A program made the position numbers and the translations under genes. DNA of 35,798 nt from positions 3,217 to 39,014 of the forward strand of contig VYCQ01000015.1 in the NCBI GenBank assembly GCA_009843865.1. Reading direction: 5' to 3'. The notes under the pieces are model-generated. The model did no database searches. It was not told the DNA's origin and worked only from the letters and a program-made list of their open reading frames with translations. Source of the DNA: Acidimicrobiia bacterium. Its GTDB lineage: Bacteria; Actinomycetota; Acidimicrobiia; Acidimicrobiales; Bin134. Shown here one piece after another: positions 680-35,798 of this stretch (its first letter is position 1; every line of letters begins with the position of its first letter).

Positions 680-3235
680 TCAATTCCCCATAGGGAGGCT
701 GGTGTGCCACGTTCCGTTGTGGGCTCGCAGCGCGGCAGCTACCGCTCCGGCGGTGGGTACTAGGCCAATCTCCCCCACGCCTTTGATGCCGTAGGGGGCT
801 CCGGGTTGAGGTGATTCCACTAAGATAACATCTACCGGAGGCATGTCCTTAGGCCGTAGGATCCCTAGTGACTTGAGGGTCATATTGGTGGGCCAGCCGT
901 TTTCATCGGCGGGGAAGTCTTCGGTGAGAGCGTAGCCCAGCCCCATGTGGACTGCTCCTTCGATCTGGCCTTCGCATAGCAGCGGGTTGACGGCCTTGCC
1001 CACGTCGTGGGCGGCCACCACCTTTTCGACCACACCGTTGTCGTCGAGCACCACCATCTGGGCGGCGTAGCCGAAGGTTGAGTGGATGATGGGGTTATCC
1101 AACCCATCCGACAGCTTGTTTGTCCAGTCCACACGGTACTCGCCGAAGTAGTCCACGCCGGGTTGGCATCCGTCAGCCAGAGCGGTTTTACAGGCATCGG
1201 CCACCGATCCGGCACCCATTAGGGTGCCTCGACTGCCGGTGGTCTGACCCGCGCCCAACTCGTAGGTGGTGTTTACTACCACTCGTACTCGATCAGCGCT
1301 TATGCCCAGCTCGGTCACCGCCACTTGTTGAGCCACGGTGTGGATTCCCTGGCCCATCTCAGTCCAGCAGTGGCGCACCTCCACGCCGCCGCCTTCGTGG
1401 TAGTCGTCGTCAAAGCGCACCACGGCTTTGGCGATTTCTTTGAAGCCGTTGCCCAGCCCCGAGTTTTTGAGGCCGAGCCCTAGTCCTACTGATTTGCCAG
1501 CCGCCAGAGCCTTGTCCCAGGCTGGTTTGACCGCTTCTAGGCAGGCGCGGGCCCCGAGTGAGCCATCGTCCATGATCTGTCCTGGCCCCCAGATGGCACC
1601 GGGGGCTACCGCGTTGAGCGACCGCATTTCCCAGCCGTCGATGCCCACTGCCTCGGCTAGGCGGTCTATCACCCCTTCCATGGCAAACTGGGCTTGGTTG
1701 GCTCCGAAGCCTCGGAAGGCACCGCACACTGGGTTGTTGGTGCGGGCGGCTATTGCTTCTACGTCGATGTTGGGCACCGAGTAGGGGCCGCTGGCATGAC
1801 CCGCGGCCCGCTCTAGCACCTTCATGCCCACCGAGGCATACGGGCCGGAGTCACCCACCATCCGTGCTCGCAGCGCGGTGAGCTTGCCGTCGGCATCGCA
1901 GCCAGCCCACATCTCGATGCGGATGGGATGGCGTTTGGGATGCATCCGCAGCGACTCTTCTCGCGACACGGTGCATAGCACTGGGCTGCCGAGCAGCCAG
2001 GCGGCCAGCGCGGTTTGTGCTTGGTTGGCCATATCTTCTTTGCCGCCGAACGCCCCGCCGTTGCTCACCAGCTCTACGGTGACCTGTTGAGGATCGATGT
2101 TGAGCACTGATGCTATTTGATCGCGATCGTCCCATATCCCCTGGCCTCCCGAGTAAACATGCATGGTGCCGTCGTTATGGGGCACCGCTAGGGTGGATTC
2201 GGGCTCTAAGAAGGCGTGTTCAATGCGCTGGGTCTGGAACACCTCGTGGATGGTGTGGGTGCTGGCTGCTAAAGCGGCATCAACATCACCTCGGGCGTAC
2301 ACCGAGCGTGACAGCACGTTGCCGTCTAGCTGCCACACCGCATCGGCGGTGCCGTTGGTCACCGCGGCCACCGGGTCGGTGATGGGTGTGTGCACTTCAT
2401 AGGTCACCGCCACAGCCTCAGCAGCACGCCGAGCGGTGGCACGGGTGTCAGCCACTACAATGGCCAGCACATCACCCACGTAGGAGGTGCGGCCCCCCTC
2501 GGGGATGAACACCGGCCAGTCTTTATGGATGATCCCCACTCGCAGTTCGCCGGGCACGTCCGTCGCGGTGAACACCGCCTCTACGCCGTCCATGTCCTTG
2601 GCGGCTGAGGTGTCTATTCGTATGATGTCGGCCCGGGCGTGTTCCGACAGGTGCAGGGCGGCGTGCAGCAGCCCCTTGGGGCGTAGGTCGTCGATGTAGT
2701 GCCTGTCGCCTAGGGCTAGTTCTCGGGCCTCGTATTTGATGCCCCGGCTGCCTACGCCGCCGGGTGCTTCGGCTTTGGGCATTTCACCTTGGGCTAGCAT
2801 CTCGACTGCGTCCAAGATTTTGGTGTAGCCAGTGCAGCGGCATAGGTGTCCGCCTAGGTGTCGGGAAGCCTCTTCGCGGGTTAGTTCTGAGCCCTTGCGG
2901 TCAACCAACGATTTGGTGCGGATCAAGATGCCAGGGGTGCAGAATCCGCACTGAAGGGCACCGCAGGCCGCAAACACATCGGCCATGCGGTCGCGCTCTT
3001 CAGTCGGTACCCCTTCTAGGGTTAGCACCTCACAGCCAGCCGAGCGCTCCAGCGAGGTTTGGCAGGCTACTCGAGCGCGCCCATCCACCAGAACCGCGCA
3101 GCAGCCGCATTGGCCGCTGGGCGAGCACCCGTCTTTGGGTGACATGATGCCCAGCTCGTCGCGCAGGGCGGCTAGCAAGTGTTCGTGGTCGCCTTGAATG
3201 GTCACGGTTTGACCGTTGATTGTCAGCGTCGTCAT
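680..3235 (-). CDS. Fused [2Fe-2S]/molybdopterin hydroxylase resembling selenium-dependent xanthine dehydrogenase
   Basis: This is an 851-residue molybdenum hydroxylase of the xanthine dehydrogenase family with the iron-sulfur subunit fused to the molybdopterin subunit and no FAD domain. Residues 1-80 form a ferredoxin-type domain with Cys37, Cys43, Cys46 and Cys58. Residues 85-150 form the second [2Fe-2S] domain (Cys96-x2-Cys99 and Cys132-x-Cys134). The molybdopterin part carries GGAFGGK (393-399), RGFGANQ (508-514) and GVGE with the presumed catalytic Glu822. Length, fusion and lack of FAD fit the family called selenium-dependent xanthine dehydrogenase, which is known from genomes with selenium metabolism; E. 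coli XdhD has a similar layout. The start ATG overlaps the upstream stop as ATGA, with AGGAG just before it. Purine or a related heterocycle is the likely substrate, but the sequence cannot fix it. Confidence 0.85.
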   Translation of the reverse strand: MTTLTINGQTVTIQGDHEHLLAALRDELGIMSPKDGCSPSGQCGCCAVLVDGRARVACQTSLERSAGCEVLTLEGVPTEERDRMADVFAACGALQCGFCTPGILIRTKSLVDRKGSELTREEASRHLGGHLCRCTGYTKILDAVEMLAQGEMPKAEAPGGVGSRGIKYEARELALGDRHYIDDLRPKGLLHAALHLSEHARADIIRIDTSAAKDMDGVEAVFTATDVPGELRVGIIHKDWPVFIPEGGRTSYVGDVLAIVVADTRATARRAAEAVAVTYEVHTPITDPVAAVTNGTADAVWQLDGNVLSRSVYARGDVDAALAASTHTIHEVFQTQRIEHAFLEPESTLAVPHNDGTMHVYSGGQGIWDDRDQIASVLNIDPQQVTVELVSNGGAFGGKEDMANQAQTALAAWLLGSPVLCTVSREESLRMHPKRHPIRIEMWAGCDADGKLTALRARMVGDSGPYASVGMKVLERAAGHASGPYSVPNIDVEAIAARTNNPVCGAFRGFGANQAQFAMEGVIDRLAEAVGIDGWEMRSLNAVAPGAIWGPGQIMDDGSLGARACLEAVKPAWDKALAAGKSVGLGLGLKNSGLGNGFKEIAKAVVRFDDDYHEGGGVEVRHCWTEMGQGIHTVAQQVAVTELGISADRVRVVVNTTYELGAGQTTGSRGTLMGAGSVADACKTALADGCQPGVDYFGEYRVDWTNKLSDGLDNPIIHSTFGYAAQMVVLDDNGVVEKVVAAHDVGKAVNPLLCEGQIEGAVHMGLGYALTEDFPADENGWPTNMTLKSLGILRPKDMPPVDVILVESPQPGAPYGIKGVGEIGLVPTAGAVAAALRAHNGTWHTSLPMGN

Positions 3236-4305
3236 GGTTTACTCCTTAGTGGAGTGGGTGTTCCGCCGATAGTGGGCATTTTCGCGGCAGGGGGCTTCTG
3301 CTGGGTGAATGTCATTTGCTCGGTGATGGATTTGTACATCTCTGGGCGGCGATAGCGGCTGAAGTCGTACAGTGTGTTCTTGTAAGCCGCGCACCAGTTT
3401 AGGTTGCAGGTGGCCACCACTAGCTCGTCGCCGTCGCTAGTGGCTTGAGCTAGCACCTCGCCCGAGGGCCCTATGATGCAGCTCTCGGCCAAGCTTTTTA
3501 CCCCCTCTTCTTCGCCTCCTTTGGCCACACCCACCACGAACGTGCCGTTTTGGTAGGCCCCGGCCTGCATGACCAGGCGGCTGTGGAATCCGGCTAGGAA
3601 ATCCTGAGATGGATCGGGGTAGTAGTGGATAGGAGTGTTATAGCCGATCAGGATCATCTCTACATCGGCCAACCCCATCACTCGATAAGTTTCGGGCCAA
3701 CGCCGATCGTTGCACAGGGCTAGGCCGATCTCGCCTCGAAAGGCTGTCCAGGTGCGGAATGTTTCTGTGGCGGGTTCAAAGTAAGCCCGTTCTAGGTGCT
3801 GAAATGGGCGTTGAGGCTCATATGTCTCGTGTCCGGGGATGTGGACTTTGCGGAACTTAGCAACCTTGTGTCCATTGTCGTCTACTAGTAAATAGGTGTT
3901 GTAGCGATGGCCGTCGGGGGTCAGCTCGGCGTAGCCTAGGCAAAAGCCGATCCCTAGGCGGGCGGCCTCGTCAAACAGTGGTTTGACCTGCGGTGAGGGC
4001 ATCTCTGTCTCATAGAAGCTGTTGAGTTCGTTGATATCGTCGATCCACCACCGGGGAAAGAAGGTGGTCAGGGCTAGCTCGGGGTATACCACTAAATCGC
4101 AGCCCTTTTTGTGGCCTTCATGTAGCAACCTCAGCAGCCGTTCTATCACCTTGGCCCGGGTATCGTGACGTGCGATGGGGCCGAGCTGAGCTGCACCTAC
4201 GGTGATCTCACGCAGGTTGCTCGACAGGTGCGTCATCCGTTCGTCGATCACTTCGCTTGCTAGGTGGGTAGTGAGCGTGCTGTCGTTGTTGTGGGTGGCG
4301 CTCAT
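3232..4305 (-). CDS. Nitrilase-superfamily N-carbamoyl-D-amino acid hydrolase-like protein
   Basis: The 357-residue protein has the carbon-nitrogen hydrolase fold with catalytic triad Glu76 (YPELALTTFFPRW), Lys153 (FRKVHIPGH) and Cys198 (LALCNDRRWPET). Several stretches, such as ELALTTFFPRW, SFYETEMP, RPFQHLE and CNDRRWPETYRVMG, match what I remember of Agrobacterium D-carbamoylase closely. That enzyme splits N-carbamoyl-D-amino acids into the D-amino acid, CO2 and ammonia. A different ureido substrate is possible. The N terminus is about 30 residues longer than usual, but the start is supported by an ATGA overlap with the upstream gene and a GGAG about 8 nt before it; an internal Met24 is the alternative. 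The gene is the middle member of the operon and overlaps both neighbours by 4 nt, so translation is probably coupled. Confidence 0.85.
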   Translation of the reverse strand: MSATHNNDSTLTTHLASEVIDERMTHLSSNLREITVGAAQLGPIARHDTRAKVIERLLRLLHEGHKKGCDLVVYPELALTTFFPRWWIDDINELNSFYETEMPSPQVKPLFDEAARLGIGFCLGYAELTPDGHRYNTYLLVDDNGHKVAKFRKVHIPGHETYEPQRPFQHLERAYFEPATETFRTWTAFRGEIGLALCNDRRWPETYRVMGLADVEMILIGYNTPIHYYPDPSQDFLAGFHSRLVMQAGAYQNGTFVVGVAKGGEEEGVKSLAESCIIGPSGEVLAQATSDGDELVVATCNLNWCAAYKNTLYDFSRYRRPEMYKSITEQMTFTQQKPPAAKMPTIGGTPTPLRSKP

Positions 4306-5588
4306 ACCTGCACTCCGGCTGCCTCTTCTATCTTTGAGGTCTCAGCGATCTCGGCTAGATCTAGCATGATTCGCGCCAGCACGTTGGCACCTGCCTCCAA
4401 GTGCTCGGGCTCGGTGTGCTCAAACGGGTTGTGGCTGATGCCCTTCCAGGAGGGCACGAATATCATTGAGGTAGGACATACCGGAGCGAACATCTGAGCA
4501 TCATGGCCAGCGCCTGAGCATAGTTGTCGGTGGCTGAGGCCCAGATCTGCGGCAGCTTGTTCTACCCTGTCGATCATTTCAGGGGCGAACTCCACAGGGG
4601 CGAATCGGGCGAGACACCGTGAGGTGATCTCTGTGTCTGATTCGGCGGCTAGTTCTTTGAGGAAGGCGGCTAGGCGGTTTTCGGCTTCGGTGAGCAGGTT
4701 GTCGTTGGTGTTGCGCATGTCCACGGTAAGCACCGCATCAGAAGCCACCACATTCACTAGATTGGGGTGTAGCTCAACTCGCCCTACGGTACATACCTGC
4801 GGAGGGCCGAACTTTTCGGCCAACTCGTGAACGAACACCGCGATGCGAGCAGCGGCCCACCCGGCATCGTGGCGCATGTTCATTGGGGTGGTGCCAGCGT
4901 GATTTGACTGACCAGCTACGGTGATCTCAGCCCAGCTGATGCCTTGCACGCCAGTGACCACGCCGATCACGATGCCCTCGGTGTCAAGGATTGGGCCTTG
5001 CTCAATATGCAGCTCGATGAAGGCGTGGGGTGGCGGCGATGGGCATGGGGCTGAGCCCCGATAGCCGATTCGGCTAAGTTCTTCACCCACTGTTGCACCG
5101 TCGGTGCCCACGATGTCAAGCGCTTCTTCTAGGGGGAGCTCGCCGGTGTAAACAAGGCTGCCTAGCATGTCGGGGGGAAATCGAGAGCCTTCCTCGTCGG
5201 TGAAGAATCCCACCGCTAACGGCCGACGGGTGGTGATGTTGGCCTGTTTAACCGCTTCGATCACCTGTAAGCCAGCTAAAACGCCGAGGTTGCCGTCGTA
5301 GCGACCGCCGGTGCGCACGGTGTCGATGTGGCTTCCGCACATGACCGGCGGCCCTTCTGTAGCCCCGGCCAGGGTGCCAATCACGTTGCCGATGCCGTCG
5401 ATGCTGATGTCGAGACCTAGGTCTTGCATCCACGTCACCACCAAGTCGCGCCCGGCACGATCTTCGTCGGTCAGCGCCAAGCGGCAGGCACCGTCGGTGC
5501 CTTCGATCTCGCCAATTGAAGCCAAAGCAGCTAAGCGATCGCTCAGGCTTCGACCGTCGACGCTGATCTCAGGAGCCATAGATATCAT
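4302..5588 (-). CDS. M20-family Zn amidohydrolase (allantoate amidohydrolase / N-carbamoyl-L-amino acid hydrolase type)
   Basis: This 428-residue metallopeptidase-fold enzyme belongs to the AllC/HyuC/beta-ureidopropionase group. Visible metal-site motifs are GSHIDTV, DGNLGV, the Glu pair in FFTDEEGSRF, the His of ELHIEQGP, and the C-terminal GISHNP. A dimerisation lid lies between roughly residues 210 and 330 (QSNHAGTTPM and following). Known members remove ammonia and CO2 from allantoate or hydrolyse N-carbamoyl-L-amino acids; YgeY, another M20 protein, sits in the E. coli purine cluster with XdhD. Here it is the first full-length gene of the operon. Two ATGs, 5588 and 5579, are possible and neither has a clear Shine-Dalgarno site. 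Together with the carbamoylase-like enzyme and the molybdenum hydroxylase it suggests breakdown of a purine, hydantoin or ureide. The exact substrate is not determinable from sequence. Confidence 0.85.
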   Translation of the reverse strand: MISMAPEISVDGRSLSDRLAALASIGEIEGTDGACRLALTDEDRAGRDLVVTWMQDLGLDISIDGIGNVIGTLAGATEGPPVMCGSHIDTVRTGGRYDGNLGVLAGLQVIEAVKQANITTRRPLAVGFFTDEEGSRFPPDMLGSLVYTGELPLEEALDIVGTDGATVGEELSRIGYRGSAPCPSPPPHAFIELHIEQGPILDTEGIVIGVVTGVQGISWAEITVAGQSNHAGTTPMNMRHDAGWAAARIAVFVHELAEKFGPPQVCTVGRVELHPNLVNVVASDAVLTVDMRNTNDNLLTEAENRLAAFLKELAAESDTEITSRCLARFAPVEFAPEMIDRVEQAAADLGLSHRQLCSGAGHDAQMFAPVCPTSMIFVPSWKGISHNPFEHTEPEHLEAGANVLARIMLDLAEIAETSKIEEAAGVQV

Positions 5589-20175: not shown

Positions 20176-21510
20176 ATGGAACCTCAAAAAGATTATGTTC
20201 TGCGCATGGTTGAAGAGCGCGGCGTGCGGCTCATCCGCTTGTGGTTTACCGACGTGTTGGGCCAGCTCAAGTCGGTAGCTATCTCACCTGCGGAGTTAGC
20301 CGATGCTTTCGACGAGGGCCTTCAGTTTGATGGTTCGGCTATCGATGGGTTCTCAAGGGTGCAAGAAAGCGATGTGTTGGCTGTGCCCGATGCTGCCACT
20401 TTTGAGCTGTTGCCCTGGGCCGACCCCGATGAGCCTTCGGGGCGCATCTTTTGTGACATTTGTAATCCTGATGGTACCCCTTTTGCAGGTGACCCTCGTT
20501 GGGTGCTGCGCCGTGCTTTAGCCAAAGCAGCCGACAGGGGCTACACCTTTTACGCAGCCCCTGAGGTGGAGTTTTTTTACTTCAGCCATGGCGATCCCAA
20601 TCAGCCGTTGGTGCCTGTAGATAATGCTTCTTATTTCGATCTAACCACCGTGGATGTAGCTAGCCCGCTGCGCAAGCGCACTATTGGCATGCTTGAGGCA
20701 ATGGGTATTCCTGTGGAGTATTCTTTTCACGAGGACAGCCCGAGTCAACACGAGATCGACCTGCGTTACACCGAGGCATTGAGCATGGCCGATAACGTGA
20801 TGACCTTGCGTTTGGTGGTGCGCAAGCTTGCGCTAGACCGCAACCTGCACGCCACGTTCATGCCGAAGCCGCTAAACGGGGTGCAGGGTTCGGGCATGCA
20901 TACCCACATGTCGTTGTTTGAGAATGACGTGAACGCGTTTTACGATGCTGATGATAGGTACGGCTTGTCCAAAACAGCTAAGTCGTTCATTGCCGGGTTG
21001 TTGGTGCATGCGCGAGAGATAACTGCAATTACCAATCAGCTCGTCAACAGCTATAAACGCCTAGGGGTGGGCGACGAGGCCCCCACGTTTGTGTCTTGGG
21101 CTCGCAATAACCGTTCGGCTTTGGTGCGAGTGCCGATGGTTAAGGCGGGTAAGGAGTCGTCCACCCGTATTGAGTATCGGGCGTTGGATTCGGCGGCCAA
21201 TCCTTATCTTGCTTTTTCCGCAGTGCTAGCCGCTGGACTCAAGGGGTTGGAAGAGGGTTACGAGTTGCCTGCTGAGGCTGCCACTGATCTTTATACCACT
21301 TCTAGGGATGAGGCCCATGCGACTGGGCTATTAGAGTTGCCCATGTCTTTGTCTGAGGCGTTGGACGAGTTGGAGGCATCCCCACTTATGGCCGAGGTGT
21401 TGGGCGAACATATTCACGAGTGGTTCCTGCGTAACAAGCGGGCCGAATACAGTCAGTACCGCCAAGAGGTCACGTCTTTTGAGTTGCGTCGCTACTTGAA
21501 CACCTGGTGA
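20176..21510 (+). CDS. glnA2: Second glutamine synthetase-family protein (GlnA2-like)
   Basis: The 444-residue protein is a type I glutamine synthetase of the GSI-alpha/GlnA2 group: LWFTDVLGQLKSV, GLQFDGSAIDGF, APEVEFFYFS, HEDSPSQHEID, KPLNGVQGSGMHTHMS and NNRSALVRVP. It lacks the 25-residue GSI-beta insertion, and the region of the adenylylation Tyr reads DLYTTSRDE instead of NLYDLPPEE, so GlnE control is doubtful. It may make glutamine or act as a gamma-glutamyl ligase on another amine, as some actinobacterial paralogues do. It is divergent from glnA and followed after 31 bp by the glnR-like gene on the same strand. Confidence 0.9.
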   Translation: MEPQKDYVLRMVEERGVRLIRLWFTDVLGQLKSVAISPAELADAFDEGLQFDGSAIDGFSRVQESDVLAVPDAATFELLPWADPDEPSGRIFCDICNPDGTPFAGDPRWVLRRALAKAADRGYTFYAAPEVEFFYFSHGDPNQPLVPVDNASYFDLTTVDVASPLRKRTIGMLEAMGIPVEYSFHEDSPSQHEIDLRYTEALSMADNVMTLRLVVRKLALDRNLHATFMPKPLNGVQGSGMHTHMSLFENDVNAFYDADDRYGLSKTAKSFIAGLLVHAREITAITNQLVNSYKRLGVGDEAPTFVSWARNNRSALVRVPMVKAGKESSTRIEYRALDSAANPYLAFSAVLAAGLKGLEEGYELPAEAATDLYTTSRDEAHATGLLELPMSLSEALDELEASPLMAEVLGEHIHEWFLRNKRAEYSQYRQEVTSFELRRYLNTW

Positions 21511-21541: not shown

Positions 21542-22207
21542 ATGAATGATCCGCTTTTGGTATACCCCGATCCGCCGCCTTTAGAGTTGGTGCGCACACT
21601 AGATTTGGGCAATTGGAACTGGAAGGCGATTGGTAACGCCCAAGAGCCTGAAGGCAGATGGGTGGGCGCGGTGGTAGTGGTGGATGATGACACTGAGGAC
21701 GCTTTCGGCTTTTGCCGCACGTTAAAGCGTCGTGGCTTAGATATTCCCGTGCTCTTGTTGGTGTCAGGCAACCTCTTAGAAGAATTAGAAATGCGTGACG
21801 ACCTTTTTGTTGACTTCTGTCTCACCCCGTTTCATCAGCGCGAACTAGATGCGAGGTTGTCGCATCTAGCGTGGCGATCAGGCACTGGGCTGCGCCCTGA
21901 GCTAATTGAGTACGGGCCGCTGGTGCTTAACGTGGAGACCTATCAAGCATCTATTTCTGGCAAGCCGCTTGATCTCACCTACATGGAGTATGAGCTTTTG
22001 AAGTTTCTGGCTAACTCTCCTGGCAAGGTGTTTACTCGTGAGACGCTGCTCAGCAGGGTTTGGGGTTACGACTACTTTGGCGGTGCCCGTACCGTGGATG
22101 TCCACGTCCGTCGACTCCGGGCCAAGCTTGGCGAAGAGAATGCTGGCCTGCTCACCACAGTCCGTTCAGTGGGCTACCGTTTCGGTCTCTCCCGCTGGGA
22201 ACACTAA
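21542..22207 (+). CDS. glnR: OmpR-type orphan response regulator, GlnR-like
   Basis: Residues 1-115 form a degenerate receiver domain: the expected N-terminal acidic pocket is missing, while AVVVVDDDTEDA (Asp48-50) occupies the phospho-acceptor strand. Residues 125-217 are an OmpR winged helix (LTYMEYELLKFLANSPGKVF, LLSRVWGYDYFGGARTVDV, SVGYRF). This divergent receiver with a GWGYDYFGG-type helix and no adjacent histidine kinase matches GlnR, the nitrogen regulator of Actinobacteria. Position next to two glutamine synthetase genes and near glnE supports it. An MtrA-like role is the alternative. The ATG at 21542 lies 31 bp after glnA2, so the two may be co-transcribed. Confidence 0.78.
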   Translation: MNDPLLVYPDPPPLELVRTLDLGNWNWKAIGNAQEPEGRWVGAVVVVDDDTEDAFGFCRTLKRRGLDIPVLLLVSGNLLEELEMRDDLFVDFCLTPFHQRELDARLSHLAWRSGTGLRPELIEYGPLVLNVETYQASISGKPLDLTYMEYELLKFLANSPGKVFTRETLLSRVWGYDYFGGARTVDVHVRRLRAKLGEENAGLLTTVRSVGYRFGLSRWEH

Positions 22208-23524: not shown

Positions 23525-23884
23525 TTAAGGGTTGATGTAGGCCCAGAGTTCGATTTCTACGAGAGCACCTAGAGGCAGAGCCGCCACTCCTACAGCGGAG
23601 CGGGCAGGGCGGGAGTTGCCGAAGCATTCCATGTAGAGCTTGTTCATCGCATCGAAGTCGTTCATGTGTACCAAGAACACCGTGGTCTTCACCACATCTT
23701 GTAGTGTTGCTTGTTCGGTGGCTAATACTGCGCTGGCGTTGGCTACGGCTTGACGGAATTGTGCGATAAGCCCACCTGACACAAGTGAGCCATCGGCAAT
23801 GCCGATCTGTCCTGAACAGATCAGAAAATCGCCTGCGCGAATAATGGGAGAATACGGGCCAACCGGAGTGCTCAGAGTGCTCAT
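23525..23884 (-). CDS. ridA: RidA-family enamine/imine deaminase
   Basis: The 119-residue protein shows the RidA/YjgF pattern: PVGPYSPIIRAGDFLICSGQIG, DVVKTTVFLVHMNDF and PARSAVGVAALPLGALVEIE with the conserved substrate-binding Arg and Glu. RidA hydrolyses reactive 2-aminoacrylate-type intermediates from PLP enzymes, protecting the cytosol. It would form a trimer. The ATG lies at 23884, and glnE starts 13 bp away on the other strand, so the two promoters must lie within each other's coding sequence or the mRNAs be leaderless. Confidence 0.9.
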   Translation of the reverse strand: MSTLSTPVGPYSPIIRAGDFLICSGQIGIADGSLVSGGLIAQFRQAVANASAVLATEQATLQDVVKTTVFLVHMNDFDAMNKLYMECFGNSRPARSAVGVAALPLGALVEIELWAYINP

Positions 23885-23897
23885 AGCATGGGATCAT

Positions 23898-26603
23898 ATG
23901 GAAGCTGAACACCAAGTGCATTCCAATCCGAATATAGAACAGATCATCGCTGCCAGTCCTTGGCCCGCCGAGGCCAGCGCATTAATAAACGACCTAGGCA
24001 TAACCAGCGAGCGCAAGGTCCGAGCCGCAGCCTTGTTGGCGGGCGCTTCTCGTAGCCTGAGCAGCGCCGTGCGGCGTGAACCCAGCTTGCTGAACGTGCT
24101 TGAGTCTCCCGCAGAGTTCGCCACCGAGAAGGCAATTTTCACGGCTCCTAGCGATGTTGATGCAATTGACGGACTACGCTGTTGGAAACGCCGTCAGCTC
24201 TTGCGCATAGCTTTGCGTGATCTGCTTGGCGAGGCCGACCTAGCCACCGTGGGGCGTGAGCTGTCGGCGCTAGCCAACTCTTGTTTTGCCCGCGCCCTAG
24301 AAATCGCAGATGAAGGCCCCCCCTTGGCCATCATTGGCATGGGCAAGCTAGGTGGCAGCGAGCTGAACTACGCCAGCGATGTGGACATCGTTTTCGTACA
24401 CGACGGTAGTACTACCGATGCGGTGCGGCGCGCCCGCAAAGTTGTGCAGGTGCTTACCAGCTTGACCAGTGAAGGCATGGTCTACCGCGTAGACACCGAT
24501 CTTCGCCCTGATGGACAAACTGGTTCACTCAGCCTACCCCCAGAGGCTTACCAGCATTACTTTGAAAAACGCGCTCATGCTTGGGAACGACAGGCTTACA
24601 TTAAAACCAGCTTGTGCGCTGGTGATCCTAATGTAGCCAAAGCTTTTTTTGATGCCGTTGGGCCGGGAGTGTGGGAAGAAAACTTGGGCGCAGCCACCGT
24701 GCCCTCACTGCAAGCCATGAAGCAGCGGGTAGAGGAGTCGGCCAAACACAAAGGTTACAGAGAACTCAAAAAAGGCCCCGGCGGTTTGCGCGACATTGAG
24801 TTCACCGTGCAGCTTCTTCAGTTGGTGCATGGCCGCACTGATCAGTCAATTCGCTCACCCAACACCCTCACGGCATTACGGCAGCTTAGCTGGGGTAACT
24901 ACATTGATCAGGCCGATGCTGTTCACTTCACCACCGCCTATATCCACCTTCGCACCGTAGAGCACCGTCTTCAATTACGTGACGAGCGGCAAACTCACGA
25001 GTTACCAACTAACCCTGAAAATCTCTATTGGGTCGCTCGTGCCGCCGGGTTCGCCACTCGCGAAGATTTTGAGGCATCCCATCGTCGTCATCAAGCCTCG
25101 GTACGCGAAATCCACGAACGCATCTTTTACCGCCAAACCTTAAATCGCATGCACGACACCGGTCTGGTCAGCGAGCTGCGCACAGAACATCTCGCTCAGC
25201 TTGGTTTCGATGATCCCGAACGTGCCGCCGCGACGATAGAGCGTCTTGTTGAGAACTTGGGCCGCCGCGCCAACGTGATGCAACAGGTGCTGGTGATTAT
25301 GGTCGAAGCCTTAGCAACAACGCCCGACCCCGATTTAGGTTTGGTTCGTCTGGCTTGGTTGTTAGACGGTTCTTACCGTGTGGGTGCCATCTTGCCGGTG
25401 TTGCGTGATTCCCCAATTGCCATCAGCGACATCGCCAGAATCTTGGGCTCCAGTCGGGTTGCCGCCGGTTTGCTGCGCAATCATCCCGAGTTTGCCCGAA
25501 GCCTCATGTACATCGGTGCTTTAGCGACACCACCTGAACCCCAAGCTCTCGCCACGGAAGCCAGCCAAACGATGAACGCCAGCGGCCACGACCAAACCGT
25601 GCAGATGGCCGAGTTGCGTCGCTTTGTACGTCGTGAACAACTTCGCGTGGCCGCAAGAGACATCTTAGGTTTGGCCTCAATAGTGGAAGTGCCCGAAGAG
25701 CTTTCCTTGCTGGCTGATGCTGCTGTGGCTGCTGCTTTGCAAGCTCTGGCCCCGCAGATGCCTTTCGCTGTGATAGGGCTGGGGCGCTATGGAGGTCTCG
25801 ACTTGTCTTATGCCTCCGACCTAGATGTGATCTTTGTGTACGATGGTGATACCGCCGCTGAAGCACAGGCCGCCGCTCGCACAGCCAGAGGTTTACTGCA
25901 ACAAATAGGTGCTCAAACAGCCGAAGGTCGAGCGTGGGAGATAGATGCCCGCCTCCGCCCCGAAGGTGAAAACGGCCAACTCGCTCGTTCGTTAGAGGGC
26001 TATCAACGTTATTACAACGAAAGAGGGCAGTTATGGGAACGTCAAGCCCTGCTTAAACGCCGTTTTGTAGCGGGCGATTCGGGTGTGGGTGAACGTTTTT
26101 TGGAGTTGGCCGACAACTGGTGCTATCAAGACAACTTCAGCGAGGTTGAGGTTGACGAAGTGCGAGCCATGAAGCGCCGTATTGAATCAGAACGCCTCGG
26201 CACTGGAAGCAGGGCCTTAGATGTGAAGCTTGGCGCTGGTGGGCTGAGCGACATTGAGTTCACCGTGCAACTCATGCAGCTTCAGCACGGTCATCGGTAT
26301 CGTTCCATTCAGAACAACCGCACCCTGCCAGCATTAGCCGAACTAGCTGAACACAACCTGTTGGACATAGCAGACAGGGCCACCTTGGAAGTCGGTTATC
26401 GCTTCTGCCAGCGTTTTCGCAATGCGCGTTACCACTTGTCAGGTTTGGCTTCAGATGTGTTTCCCGAAGAGGATCATGAAGCACACCTGCTGGCGCGTCG
26501 ATTGGGCTACTCCAGCCTCGAAGACATGCTTGCTGATTACAGCGATATAACCACGGCAGTGAGAGAGGTAACCCGGCGGTTGTTTTATGGTAATCTTGCT
26601 TAG
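23898..26603 (+). CDS. glnE: Bifunctional glutamine synthetase adenylyltransferase/deadenylase
   Basis: The roughly 900-residue enzyme has two nucleotidyltransferase domains, each with the G-x-D-x-D motif: GKLGGSELNYASDVDIVFV in the N-terminal half (deadenylase) and GRYGGLDLSYASDLDVIFV in the C-terminal half (adenylylase), each followed by a helical domain with GGLRDIEFTVQ or GGLSDIEFTVQ. It adds or removes AMP on the Tyr of GlnA, and glnA lies 5 kb away. I choose ATG 23898 (MEAEHQ): an upstream ATG at 23799 in the same frame would run inside ridA. TAGCAT 8 nt before it could be the -10 of a leaderless mRNA. The gene ends convergent with the reduced molybdenum hydroxylase gene. Confidence 0.93.
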   Translation: MEAEHQVHSNPNIEQIIAASPWPAEASALINDLGITSERKVRAAALLAGASRSLSSAVRREPSLLNVLESPAEFATEKAIFTAPSDVDAIDGLRCWKRRQLLRIALRDLLGEADLATVGRELSALANSCFARALEIADEGPPLAIIGMGKLGGSELNYASDVDIVFVHDGSTTDAVRRARKVVQVLTSLTSEGMVYRVDTDLRPDGQTGSLSLPPEAYQHYFEKRAHAWERQAYIKTSLCAGDPNVAKAFFDAVGPGVWEENLGAATVPSLQAMKQRVEESAKHKGYRELKKGPGGLRDIEFTVQLLQLVHGRTDQSIRSPNTLTALRQLSWGNYIDQADAVHFTTAYIHLRTVEHRLQLRDERQTHELPTNPENLYWVARAAGFATREDFEASHRRHQASVREIHERIFYRQTLNRMHDTGLVSELRTEHLAQLGFDDPERAAATIERLVENLGRRANVMQQVLVIMVEALATTPDPDLGLVRLAWLLDGSYRVGAILPVLRDSPIAISDIARILGSSRVAAGLLRNHPEFARSLMYIGALATPPEPQALATEASQTMNASGHDQTVQMAELRRFVRREQLRVAARDILGLASIVEVPEELSLLADAAVAAALQALAPQMPFAVIGLGRYGGLDLSYASDLDVIFVYDGDTAAEAQAAARTARGLLQQIGAQTAEGRAWEIDARLRPEGENGQLARSLEGYQRYYNERGQLWERQALLKRRFVAGDSGVGERFLELADNWCYQDNFSEVEVDEVRAMKRRIESERLGTGSRALDVKLGAGGLSDIEFTVQLMQLQHGHRYRSIQNNRTLPALAELAEHNLLDIADRATLEVGYRFCQRFRNARYHLSGLASDVFPEEDHEAHLLARRLGYSSLEDMLADYSDITTAVREVTRRLFYGNLA

Positions 26604-26662: not shown

Positions 26663-28219
26663 TTATCGGTGTTCAGACACAGCACGAGACAGATCTCCCG
26701 TGGGCCAATCTGGTGGATAGCCAGCAGCCCGCCAGACAGCAGCGGCGGTAGCTGCGAACACAGCGTCGGAACCGTTCGTGGGTGGGTCTTGGCTGGGTTC
26801 GATCTCAACTTCTACTAGTGGCATTTTGGTGGCTGGCACTATTCCAAACGAGCGCACGGTTAGGTCGTGGACTTCACCGGTTTCGTCCACGCAAAGAGCC
26901 TCAGAGGTAACCCAGCTATAGGCCATATGAGCCGCGCCAATACAATAAGAGCGCAACACCACCTCATCCAGCGGTTCGCCGCAACGCACTCGCACATGTA
27001 ACCTGTCATCAGCCCAGCTTGCTGTGGCTTTGCCTCCCCCTGGGGCTAAGAACCATTGCTGATTCTCTTTTCTTGCACCGCCTGCATTCAGAGCGCTAAG
27101 TGCAACAGATGCTTCGACCCACCCAACTCCTCGCAATGCTAGTGATGTGGGTGGCCCGACGACATCCACCTGTTGCACATCTAGGCCGGGCGCTACCGCT
27201 GCCACAGCCTTGGCGATGTCAGTGGTACGAGCCACCCGCATGATCCCCTGCCCATCAACCTCAATACCAATAGCCACTGGGGGACGTTTTGGGCCAAACC
27301 TTACGGTGTCTTCGCGCGACCACAACACCCGCACTGTGCGACCATGTTGATCGGCTAGGCGACGAGCTATCTGTGGCAACGGTGAGGGCATTTTGGCTCC
27401 AAAGGCACCACCGTTGGCCAGCGGGCTAGCAGGTTGGCCGCCAGGCTTGCACCAGGAAGCATCAGTTTCTAGATACGCAGGTTCTACCCAAGAGGTGCGA
27501 AGCCGCGCAGCCCAATCTCCTTCAGCAAACTCCAAAGGCATCTGCTGTTGCACTGGGGTGCGCCGCCCTTGCACACGGTTAGCTAGCTGACGGGCCTCAT
27601 TTATCGTTTCACCAACCACCCAGCCGCCCTGCCCGTCAGATAAAGCCACCAAAGCATCTGCGGGCGCGGCGTCGTCAGCAAACCCGCCTTGGCCACACAC
27701 GATTTGTGGCCCTACGATTTGAGGCACACCACCTTCGATGCATGCTCGTTGTGAGGCAGCGTCCCAGTTGCGCTTAGCCCCTGTTGCACCAACGCAGCGC
27801 CAAGCTTCCAAGATGGTCTGCCACCCAGTGCAGCGACATAGATGGGCCGCTAACGCCGATGCTGCTTTCTCATGCGAGTTCAATCCTGCTAGCCGCATGA
27901 TGATCCCAGGGGTGCAAAATCCGCATTGGCTCGCGCCGGTAGCGCAAAACGCCTCAGTCCACTTGTCGCGCTCAGTGCTAGAAAGCCCTTCAAGGGTGGT
28001 GATTGTTCGGCCCGCTACCCGTCGTACCGGGGTTACACATGAAACTCGAGGCTTGCCATCCACCCACACAGTGCAGCACCCGCACTGGCCTTGCGGACTA
28101 CAGCCGTCTTTTACCGAAGTAATTCCAAGCTGCCCTCGCAGCACATCCATGAGCGAGGCGTCCTCGTCAACTACCGCTACCCGTTGACCATCAACAACCA
28201 ATTCCAGTGAGGCCGCCAT
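26663..28219 (-). CDS. Reduced [2Fe-2S]/molybdopterin hydroxylase-like protein, 518 residues
   Basis: This is a shortened relative of the 851-residue protein at 680-3235. The two N-terminal [2Fe-2S] domains are intact: Cys40, Cys46, Cys49, Cys61, then Cys99-x2-Cys102 and Cys128-x-Cys130. The molybdopterin part is only about 350 residues instead of 690. It keeps GGAFGAK (270-276) and a degraded RGVGW (363-367) and a C-terminal block alignable with the large protein (SYCIGAAHMAYSW, SFGIVPATKMPLVEV), but the GVGE motif with the catalytic Glu is replaced by NGSD. Activity as a hydroxylase is doubtful; electron transfer or cofactor handling is possible. The frame is fully open, so it is not an obvious pseudogene. 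Its gene lies next to an iron-sulfur carrier gene on the same strand. Confidence 0.8.
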   Translation of the reverse strand: MAASLELVVDGQRVAVVDEDASLMDVLRGQLGITSVKDGCSPQGQCGCCTVWVDGKPRVSCVTPVRRVAGRTITTLEGLSSTERDKWTEAFCATGASQCGFCTPGIIMRLAGLNSHEKAASALAAHLCRCTGWQTILEAWRCVGATGAKRNWDAASQRACIEGGVPQIVGPQIVCGQGGFADDAAPADALVALSDGQGGWVVGETINEARQLANRVQGRRTPVQQQMPLEFAEGDWAARLRTSWVEPAYLETDASWCKPGGQPASPLANGGAFGAKMPSPLPQIARRLADQHGRTVRVLWSREDTVRFGPKRPPVAIGIEVDGQGIMRVARTTDIAKAVAAVAPGLDVQQVDVVGPPTSLALRGVGWVEASVALSALNAGGARKENQQWFLAPGGGKATASWADDRLHVRVRCGEPLDEVVLRSYCIGAAHMAYSWVTSEALCVDETGEVHDLTVRSFGIVPATKMPLVEVEIEPSQDPPTNGSDAVFAATAAAVWRAAGYPPDWPTGDLSRAVSEHR

Positions 28220-28246: not shown

Positions 28247-28573
28247 CTAGCTGAAGCTCTGTCCGCAGCCGCAGGTGCGCTCAGCATTGGGATTGGAGAT
28301 TGAGAATCCTGCGTCGGTGAGGCCGTCTTTGTAGTCCAGCACTGCTCCCTGCAAAAGGGCTGCGCTAGACGAGTCAACCACCACCTTTACATCACCAAAT
28401 CGCACTTCTTTGTCTTCAGCACTCACATCTGCGTCGAAGTACATCTCATAGTTAAAGCCCGAGCATCCACCGGGGCGCACCGCAACCCGTAGGGCTAGCT
28501 CTTCGTCGTCGGTTTTTTCTTGACGAACCAAATCTCCAACCTTGCTGGTGGCTGCATTAGTGAGAGTAATCAT
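28247..28573 (-). CDS. erpA: A-type iron-sulfur carrier (IscA/ErpA family)
   Basis: The 108-residue protein (MITLTNAATSKVGDL onward) has the A-type signature: RPGGCSGFNYEM and the C-terminal CGCGQSF, giving three conserved cysteines that hold an iron-sulfur cluster for delivery to target enzymes. The ATG at 28573 has GGAGAG 3 nt upstream; an in-frame extension to 28636 has no family similarity. The reduced iron-sulfur hydroxylase gene follows 27 bp downstream and may receive clusters from it. The Mrp/ApbC gene is divergent. Confidence 0.9.
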   Translation of the reverse strand: MITLTNAATSKVGDLVRQEKTDDEELALRVAVRPGGCSGFNYEMYFDADVSAEDKEVRFGDVKVVVDSSSAALLQGAVLDYKDGLTDAGFSISNPNAERTCGCGQSFS

Positions 28574-28640: not shown

Positions 28641-28656
28641 TAGTATTGCTCGGGTG
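28641..28656 (+). promoter_or_regulatory. Leaderless-type -10 box for mrp-selA-selB
   Basis: TAGTAT (28641-28646) lies 7 nt before the GTG start at 28654, the spacing expected when transcription begins at the start codon. No Shine-Dalgarno sequence is visible. A -35 match is not clear. Confidence 0.4.
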
Positions 28657-29844
28657 AGCGACACTTTGGCTGCCCTCTTGCCCAGCGTAGAAGATGTTAT
28701 GGGCGTTTTGCGTGGCGTGATCGACCCAGAGCTAGGCAGCGACATAGTCACCCTTGGTATGGCCCGAGGCGCAACGGTCAACCACGACGGCTTAGTAGAG
28801 GTGAAGGTGGCGCTCACTACCTCGGGATGTCCCCTGAGGGCGCAAATCCAGCGAGATGTGCGTTCTCGGGTTGGCAATCTGCCGGGTGTAACCAAGGTGA
28901 AGATTCACTGGGGTGAACTCACCCAACAAGAGAAGGCCGCAGCCATGGCTAAAGCCCGTTTTAATGTGTCGCAGAACGCCCCCGACACAGCGGTGCCTGC
29001 CACAACCAAGGTGGTGATGGTGGCATCGGGCAAAGGTGGCGTGGGCAAGTCGTCCATCACGGTGAACCTAGCAGCAGAGTTGGCTCGACGGGGTATGCGC
29101 ATCGGTGTTCTAGATGCCGATATTTGGGGCTACTCGGTGCCGCGCATGCTGGGTATTGAAGGCCGTTTGTCGGGTGTGGAGGGTGAAAAAAAGATCGTGC
29201 CCAACGAAAAGCAAATGGGCGATGGGGTGCTTGAGGTGGTCTCCATGGGGTTTTTGGTTGACAAAGAGGAGACGGCGCTTATGTGGCGGGGCCTCATCTT
29301 AAATCGTGCCGTGCAGCATTTTTTAGAAGATGTCCGCTGGGGGCAACTCGACTATCTTCTCATCGATATGCCACCGGGCACAGGTGACGTGCAGATGGGC
29401 ATCGCTAAGATGTTGCCCCAAGCCGAGATGGTGGTGGTGACAACCCCAGCTCGCAGTGCACAGAAGGTGGCTACTCGTGTGGCTTCTATGGGCCGTTCCA
29501 ACTACCTGCGCATTGCCGGGGTGATCGAAAACATGAGTGAGTTTGTAGACCCGCAAGGCAACTCTTACGCCATTTTCGGAAGTGGTGGTGGCCAAGAACT
29601 AGCCGACGAGTTAGGCGTACCCCTGTGGGGTCAGGTCCCCATCGATAGCTCTGTTGCCACCGGAGGCGATGAGGGCAGCCCCGCAGTGCTTGAGCCAGGT
29701 TCGGGCCCAGCAGCCGCAGCGCTGCGAGCCATCACCAGCTGTCTTCTTGAGGAAATCCCAAAGATTGACATGGCGGGCTGCACTGCCCGCATTCTCGAAG
29801 CGGCCAACGAGGCTCTAGCCAGCCTCACAATCTCAAGCAGCTAG
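28654..29844 (+). CDS. mrp: Mrp/ApbC/NBP35-family P-loop ATPase
   Basis: The 396-residue protein begins with a MIP18/DUF59 domain (1-90: LRGVIDPELGSDIVTLGM, TTSGCPLR), then a SIMIBI ATPase with the deviant Walker A SGKGGVGKSS (125-134), LIDMPPGTGD and PARSAQKVATR. Such proteins bind and transfer iron-sulfur clusters. The usual CxxC after VIENMS is absent (DPQGNS here), as I recall for other actinobacterial Mrp proteins. Start GTG 28654. SelA starts 9 bp after its stop, so it leads an operon with selA and selB, an unusual partnership. Confidence 0.93.
   Translation: MSDTLAALLPSVEDVMGVLRGVIDPELGSDIVTLGMARGATVNHDGLVEVKVALTTSGCPLRAQIQRDVRSRVGNLPGVTKVKIHWGELTQQEKAAAMAKARFNVSQNAPDTAVPATTKVVMVASGKGGVGKSSITVNLAAELARRGMRIGVLDADIWGYSVPRMLGIEGRLSGVEGEKKIVPNEKQMGDGVLEVVSMGFLVDKEETALMWRGLILNRAVQHFLEDVRWGQLDYLLIDMPPGTGDVQMGIAKMLPQAEMVVVTTPARSAQKVATRVASMGRSNYLRIAGVIENMSEFVDPQGNSYAIFGSGGGQELADELGVPLWGQVPIDSSVATGGDEGSPAVLEPGSGPAAAALRAITSCLLEEIPKIDMAGCTARILEAANEALASLTISSS

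Positions 29845-35743: not shown

Positions 35744-35798
<55 letters not shown>

Follow-up and report, generated by a model that had tools for sequence, protein, structure and literature searches.

What might be the role of a protein that keeps both iron-sulfur domains of a molybdenum hydroxylase when most of the part that would hold the enzyme's cofactor has gone? The question is raised by a gene (Table 1) in a stretch of 35,798 nucleotides, the window, from a contig of an Acidimicrobiia bacterium. Molybdenum hydroxylases are textbook cofactor enzymes. A first-pass annotation of the window had described the reading frame as intact, as its 518 uninterrupted codons bear out, and had drawn attention to neighbouring genes for SelA, SelB, an A-type carrier and an Mrp ATPase; profile matches confirm all four (SelA, SelB, ErpA-like and Mrp-like). 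For the 518-aa product, here termed the short form, it offered three roles: electron carrier, cofactor chaperone, or selenium/molybdenum delivery factor. Electron carriage stays possible, with the cluster half kept and the molybdenum half dismantled, whereas the evidence given below contradicts the chaperone and delivery roles.

Table 1. Window positions of the short form, its parts, its conserved neighbours and the comparison protein
Feature	Position	Strand	Basis or remark
Short form, two [2Fe-2S] domains and a reduced, cofactor-less molybdopterin domain, 518 aa	26663..28219	-	ORF, Pfam/NCBIfam, homologues, AF2 model
N-terminal plant-type [2Fe-2S] domain, residues 1-75	27995..28219	-	C40, C46, C48/C49, C61 invariant
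Second [2Fe-2S] domain (Fer2_2), residues 75-140	27800..27997	-	C99, C102, C128, C130 invariant
Molybdopterin-domain remnant, residues 150-507	26699..27772	-	68 near-invariant positions
Retained NGGAFGxK loop, residues 269-276	27392..27415	-	among the few cofactor-site motifs kept
erpA-like A-type Fe-S carrier	28247..28573	-	same strand as the short form, ends 27 bp before it; Met22 of the listed ORF taken as start
Mrp/ApbC-type Fe-S carrier ATPase	28654..29844	+	divergent from erpA
RidA/YjgF-family protein, 119 aa	23525..23884	-	homologues at other loci match PF01042, TIGR00004
Regulator with OmpR-type winged helix (Trans_reg_C)	21542..22207	+	conserved neighbour
Glutamine synthetase	20176..21510	+	conserved neighbour
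Full-length fused xanthine dehydrogenase-type paralogue, 851 aa	680..3235	-	comparison protein; Pfam, NCBIfam

Pfam recognizes the second [2Fe-2S] domain of the short form clearly (Fer2_2, E 9e-17), the first weakly (Fer2_3, E 1e-4), and a fragment of about 50 residues of MoCoBD_1 (E 9e-5). For the C-terminal part, kinship comes from structure and from weak PF20256 matches to the C-terminal third, seen with three short forms. The best NCBIfam match is to TIGR03311, selenium-dependent xanthine dehydrogenase, at 144 bits over residues 6-183 and so below the curated cut-off of 830 bits; the 851-aa paralogue, which has the complete domain set, matches the same profile over its whole length at 788 bits, itself slightly below the cut-off. 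NCBIfam matches labelled 'XdhC' are to the [2Fe-2S] subunit of that name and not to the chaperone, and the XdhC/CoxI chaperone profiles of Pfam and NCBIfam give no match to the short form at E <= 0.001. Residues 1-147 align at 31-38% identity with small [2Fe-2S] subunits (CoxS, E. coli-type XdhC and the gamma subunit of 4-hydroxybenzoyl-CoA reductase). CoxS-type proteins, however, are subunits of molybdenum enzymes, whereas in the short form the clusters are fused to a remnant without cofactor, and no catalytic partner for it was found nearby. That it binds two [2Fe-2S] clusters is suggested by the cysteine motifs, the eight cluster cysteines showing no variation among 81 homologues and no loss in any of the nine divergent members checked.

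Profile-profile alignment of the short-form and 851-type families (probability 100, E 1.6e-66, 35% identity, residues 5-336) and the Pfam matches agree with the initial description of both [2Fe-2S] domains as kept together with alignable blocks of the molybdopterin domain, and the loss, earlier put at about 330 residues, is 333 relative to the 851-aa protein. The missing parts were located on AlphaFold models, the paralogue being modelled for comparison (pLDDT 83); DSSP strings and the alignment served for matching secondary-structure elements by eye. Domain order, both [2Fe-2S] domains and the NGGAFGxK loop are common to the short form and the TIGR03311-type fused enzymes, but according to the models the middle of the hammerhead domain (most of that domain) is missing from the short form, as are the strand-helix-strand containing GGQG and the stretch from helix 509-530 to strand 722-730 that contains TEMGQG and TTGSRGT. 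The GVGE loop has lost eight residues, the catalytic Glu among them: in the models the last strand and last helix are 19 residues apart in the paralogue (806-825) and 11 in the short form (473-484). An ungapped reading would have the catalytic Glu replaced by Asp (D485), a substitution ruled out by the models, in which D485 falls within a helix; D485 is also changed in six of the nine divergent members. The earlier statement that GVGE has become NGSD was therefore right as to the absence of the Glu and wrong as to its manner, the loop being deleted and not substituted. The cofactor-binding roles of GGQG, GGAFG, AFRG, TEMGQG and TTGSRGT are established knowledge of the xanthine oxidase family; of these, the short form retains GGAFG and, from AFRG, the Arg (R363), but none of the others. 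The final helices are also kept, and Gln757, conserved in the full-length form, corresponds to Tyr425 when read by eye. By alignment and model, the molybdopterin domain keeps its outline, but most of the loops that bind the cofactor have gone, as has the first half of the second subdomain. The paralogue has its own setting in the window, where positions 680-5588 hold its gene, one for a carbon-nitrogen hydrolase and one for an allantoate-amidohydrolase-type M20 peptidase in a row, probably as one catabolic operon. At the far end (35744-35798) a tRNA-like match (Rfam RF00005, 30 bits) is cut by the contig end, which is also the window end.

With 81 family members as input, AlphaFold2 gave a model of the short form with pLDDT 92.7 and pTM 0.93. 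Structure prediction had been proposed as a means of seeing whether a molybdopterin pocket remains; the overall fold and some former pocket residues do, and most cofactor motifs do not. The best structural match of the whole model is to the aldehyde oxidoreductase of Desulfovibrio gigas (MOP, PDB 1sij/1vlb), with 484 residues superposed on 1sij at Z 23.5 and rmsd 3.1 Å. The two are alike in having two clusters and in lacking the FAD domain. In the D. gigas enzyme Glu869 is catalytic, and flavodoxin has been proposed as electron partner (PMC10223205). That enzyme binds molybdopterin cytosine dinucleotide; the short form lacks both the loops for such a cofactor and the Glu. In the same 81 sequences the remnant has 68 near-invariant positions, its mean entropy being 1.27 bits, compared with 1.09 in the cluster domains. 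These positions include E251, N269-G270-G271, F273, G274, K276, R302, R312, R363, E369, Y425, H431, E440 and R456, and those checked are kept in the nine divergent members, six of which come from genomes lacking both moaA and moeA. Three of the nine differ at W256 and C257, positions that vary little or not at all in the main set. The remnant is thus strongly constrained. In fold and ancestry the short form is a molybdenum hydroxylase, but it fails the tests of cofactor binding that define one and should therefore not be annotated as a xanthine dehydrogenase.

Genomes without the relevant pathways are also pertinent, and the short form persists where key steps of molybdenum-cofactor synthesis appear absent. 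Six genomes (G029, G065, G094, G445, G453 and G475) carry it and lack moaA and moeA: no moaA above the curated cut-off was found in them, nor any MoeA in a search positive for G000 (the window's own genome), G032, G073 and G114. Since completeness is 92-97% in the six and they represent three families, assembly gaps are an unlikely cause of the absence in all of them. It is key steps, not every gene, that appear absent, G029 for instance retaining moaC. G094 and G065 have an isolated moaC beside two tldD/pmbA genes (L168 3856-4347, L169 3587-4069), an oddity given that neither has moaA or moeA. PF02738 (MoCoBD_1) was searched in 12 genomes, among them three of the six (G029, G065 and G094) and G032; there was no match in G029, G094 and G032, and in G065 the short form only. 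With PF20256 (MoCoBD_2) only short forms were found in the six genomes, G032 and G114, and the absence of any other MoCoBD_2 protein from these eight led to rejection of a split enzyme whose missing half is encoded elsewhere. Cofactor synthesis by the host does not hold across the short-form family, but it does for G000, where moaA, moeA and moaC are in a single cluster and PF20256 detects three molybdenum hydroxylases.

For selenium the outcome is similar. Of 99 genomes, 31 have no selA match, and by a hand tally 20 of the 31 carry the short form, which rules out a selenium link. Outside the genus of G000 the association of short form and selA is not significant (Fisher p 0.11, uncorrected for ancestry), and with the full-length enzyme there is none (Fisher p 0.17); a TIGR03311-type match at E 1e-100 is absent from 40 of the 57 short-form genomes outside the genus (again by hand). 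Recurrence beside selAB, which the first-pass annotation had suggested looking for, also falls short, selA being nearby in only 21 of the 53 loci outside the genus whose upstream sequence extends for 5 kb or more. A molybdenum-cofactor chaperone, or a factor delivering selenium or molybdenum to the full-length enzyme, would accord with the ancestry common with the TIGR03311-type protein and with the adjacency of selAB in this genus; set against the six genomes without moaA and moeA, these absences of selA and of the supposed client, and the want of a match to the XdhC chaperone family, it is very improbable. Selenocysteine at an in-frame TGA in the molybdenum-hydroxylase frames of about 1000 codons found in the genus was likewise rejected, the one case read being the CoxS stop with CoxL after it. 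At L164 1147-3900, CoxS and CoxL (the latter with AYRCSFR) occupy one frame with a TGA stop between them, which mimics a selenoprotein in frame-based searches.

What does recur is a block in the order mrp / erpA - short form - ridA / regulator / glutamine synthetase. Recurrence next to erpA and mrp holds in 53 and 52, respectively, of the 53 loci just mentioned, and the whole set contains 43 loci where erpA shares the strand of the short form and is at most 100 bp away. On the other side, the closest partner is ridA, absent from the first-pass annotation. Among 88 loci outside the genus, 69 have it no more than 300 bp downstream of the short form and in the same orientation, at a median distance of 40 bp. 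Of 46 such loci with at least 5 kb downstream, 35 have the Trans_reg_C regulator and glutamine synthetase and one has glnE. In the genus a RidA gene is within 3.5 kb downstream in 14 of 16 loci, with glnE intervening; the same is seen in the window, unlike most other Acidimicrobiia. There ridA overlaps the mechanically called start of glnE (23799-26603, +), whose true start is probably further downstream. Many Acidimicrobiia also have an opposite-strand gene that separates erpA from the short form (or from ridA); its product of about 300 aa has a Tat/lipoprotein-like N-terminus and no Pfam match (e.g. L054 7057-7935, L188 5360-6286).

RidA-family proteins are enamine/imine deaminases. RidA removes 2-aminoacrylate, and in P. 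aeruginosa lacking it the cysteine desulfurase IscS is a significant victim (PMC9239102). Because loss of RidA damages IscS, erpA, mrp and ridA are plausible as a neighbourhood for maintenance of Fe-S and PLP enzymes, and its position suggests that the short form may take part in that function. Nine loci without the short form are instructive: in five of them a RidA-family gene (PF01042, TIGR00004) takes its place near erpA. An ErpA homologue is present in 15 of the 20 genomes without the short form. With ErpA and RidA kept in such genomes, any link is one-way, and the block may in part be general order-level synteny.

The short form is present in 79 of 99 genomes (its own and 98 relatives), and in 57 of 77 outside the genus, as judged by hand from the protein match table with fragments at contig ends counted as present. 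Scanning 84,980 species genomes turned it up repeatedly. Of 396 genomes sampled from the phylum, 18 matched at E <= 1e-60, all of them Acidimicrobiia and one from a different order, and in the genomes sampled the short form is restricted to that class; locus L058, from a MAG titled Acidobacteria, has Acidimicrobiia gene order, and the MAG is probably mis-binned. Literature searches of open-access publications found no description of the protein. Its 69 distinct sequences are 497-568 aa long, except two with longer start choices, and no intermediates between about 520 and 851 aa were seen among the homologues. In a tree of the [2Fe-2S] domains, short forms and 851-type proteins are joined (99/95) against CoxS-type and aldehyde oxidoreductase sequences; a single origin of the short form is compatible with the tree, at weak support (67/73). 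Over the whole protein dN/dS is about 0.09-0.23 for the 40 closest pairs, with larger values for the C-terminal third than for the cluster domains; the median of 0.35 over all 577 pairs with dS < 1 is probably inflated by saturation. The short form is under purifying selection. Neither full-length homologues in relatives nor restriction to this genome with relaxed selection, which had been named as grounds for abandoning the proposal, is what was found: short forms are class-wide, and dN/dS is low. G000 itself is 1.79 Mb at 98% completeness, same-genus genomes being mostly 2.2-3.8 Mb, and its small size suggests genome reduction. Loss of the active site and a length below that of the paralogue are what a decaying or mis-assembled gene would give, but this is barely conceivable for a gene with a common length range and common residues across a class, dN/dS well below 1 and a confidently predicted fold, and retained in a 1.8 Mb genome where relatives mostly have 2-4 Mb.

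From alignment and models, the short form seems to descend from a fused enzyme of xanthine dehydrogenase/aldehyde-oxidoreductase type, with the old enzyme turned into something else. As to what, about even credence is given to an electron-transfer protein that has two clusters and no molybdenum, whose remodelled domain binds a partner or ligand, and which acts in an ErpA/RidA setting. ErpA and Mrp would probably supply the two clusters, which may act as a short relay for electrons; the remodelled remnant (E251, NGGAFGxK, R302, R312, R363, E369, Y425, H431, E440) would serve as docking or ligand surface; and electrons would pass to or from a partner in the physiological setting of RidA, where reactive enamines are kept from harming PLP and Fe-S enzymes. 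An awkward feature is that electron carriers normally need no extra domain of about 360 residues with so many near-invariant positions. A constrained domain of that size suggests that it binds a ligand or else a specific, large partner, and the conserved polar residues and RidA are better explained by a repurposed enzyme, in which the former molybdenum pocket would hold another substrate or cofactor, the clusters would carry electrons, an imine or enamine would go to RidA and ammonia to glutamine synthetase. Former-pocket residues E251, N269, K276, R302, R312, R363, E369, Y425, H431 and E440 are indeed kept, also where moaA and moeA are absent, and the frequent closeness of RidA, with glutamine synthetase and the regulator beyond, is in keeping with such a route. 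RidA, though, also adjoins erpA where the short form is absent. The repurposed enzyme is a serious if unlikely alternative. Its boldest version, a rebuilt molybdenum-independent active site that would make the family a new class of two-cluster oxidoreductase derived from a molybdenum hydroxylase, with RidA resolving an imine or enamine product, is decidedly unlikely.

An Fe-S trafficking or repair factor, taking up, storing or passing on clusters with ErpA and Mrp, is pertinent given the same-strand erpA upstream in nearly all loci, mrp adjoining erpA, and the tie of RidA loss to IscS damage in another bacterium (PMC9239102). The many genomes with an ErpA homologue and no short form speak against this, and it fails to explain the cluster architecture. 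The clusters have the eight-cysteine architecture typical of electron-transfer subunits, not of labile carrier sites, and this too counts against trafficking, which is unlikely.

A conserved derivative found across a class, with fold and electron relay retained and the cofactor given up, shows how such an enzyme can be stripped and reused. There is a practical side: annotation will label the gene a xanthine dehydrogenase, or the small subunit of one, and mistakenly take it as evidence of molybdenum metabolism. For a group with few cultured members, the erpA / short form / ridA block yields a concrete hypothesis that would tie Fe-S maintenance to enamine stress.
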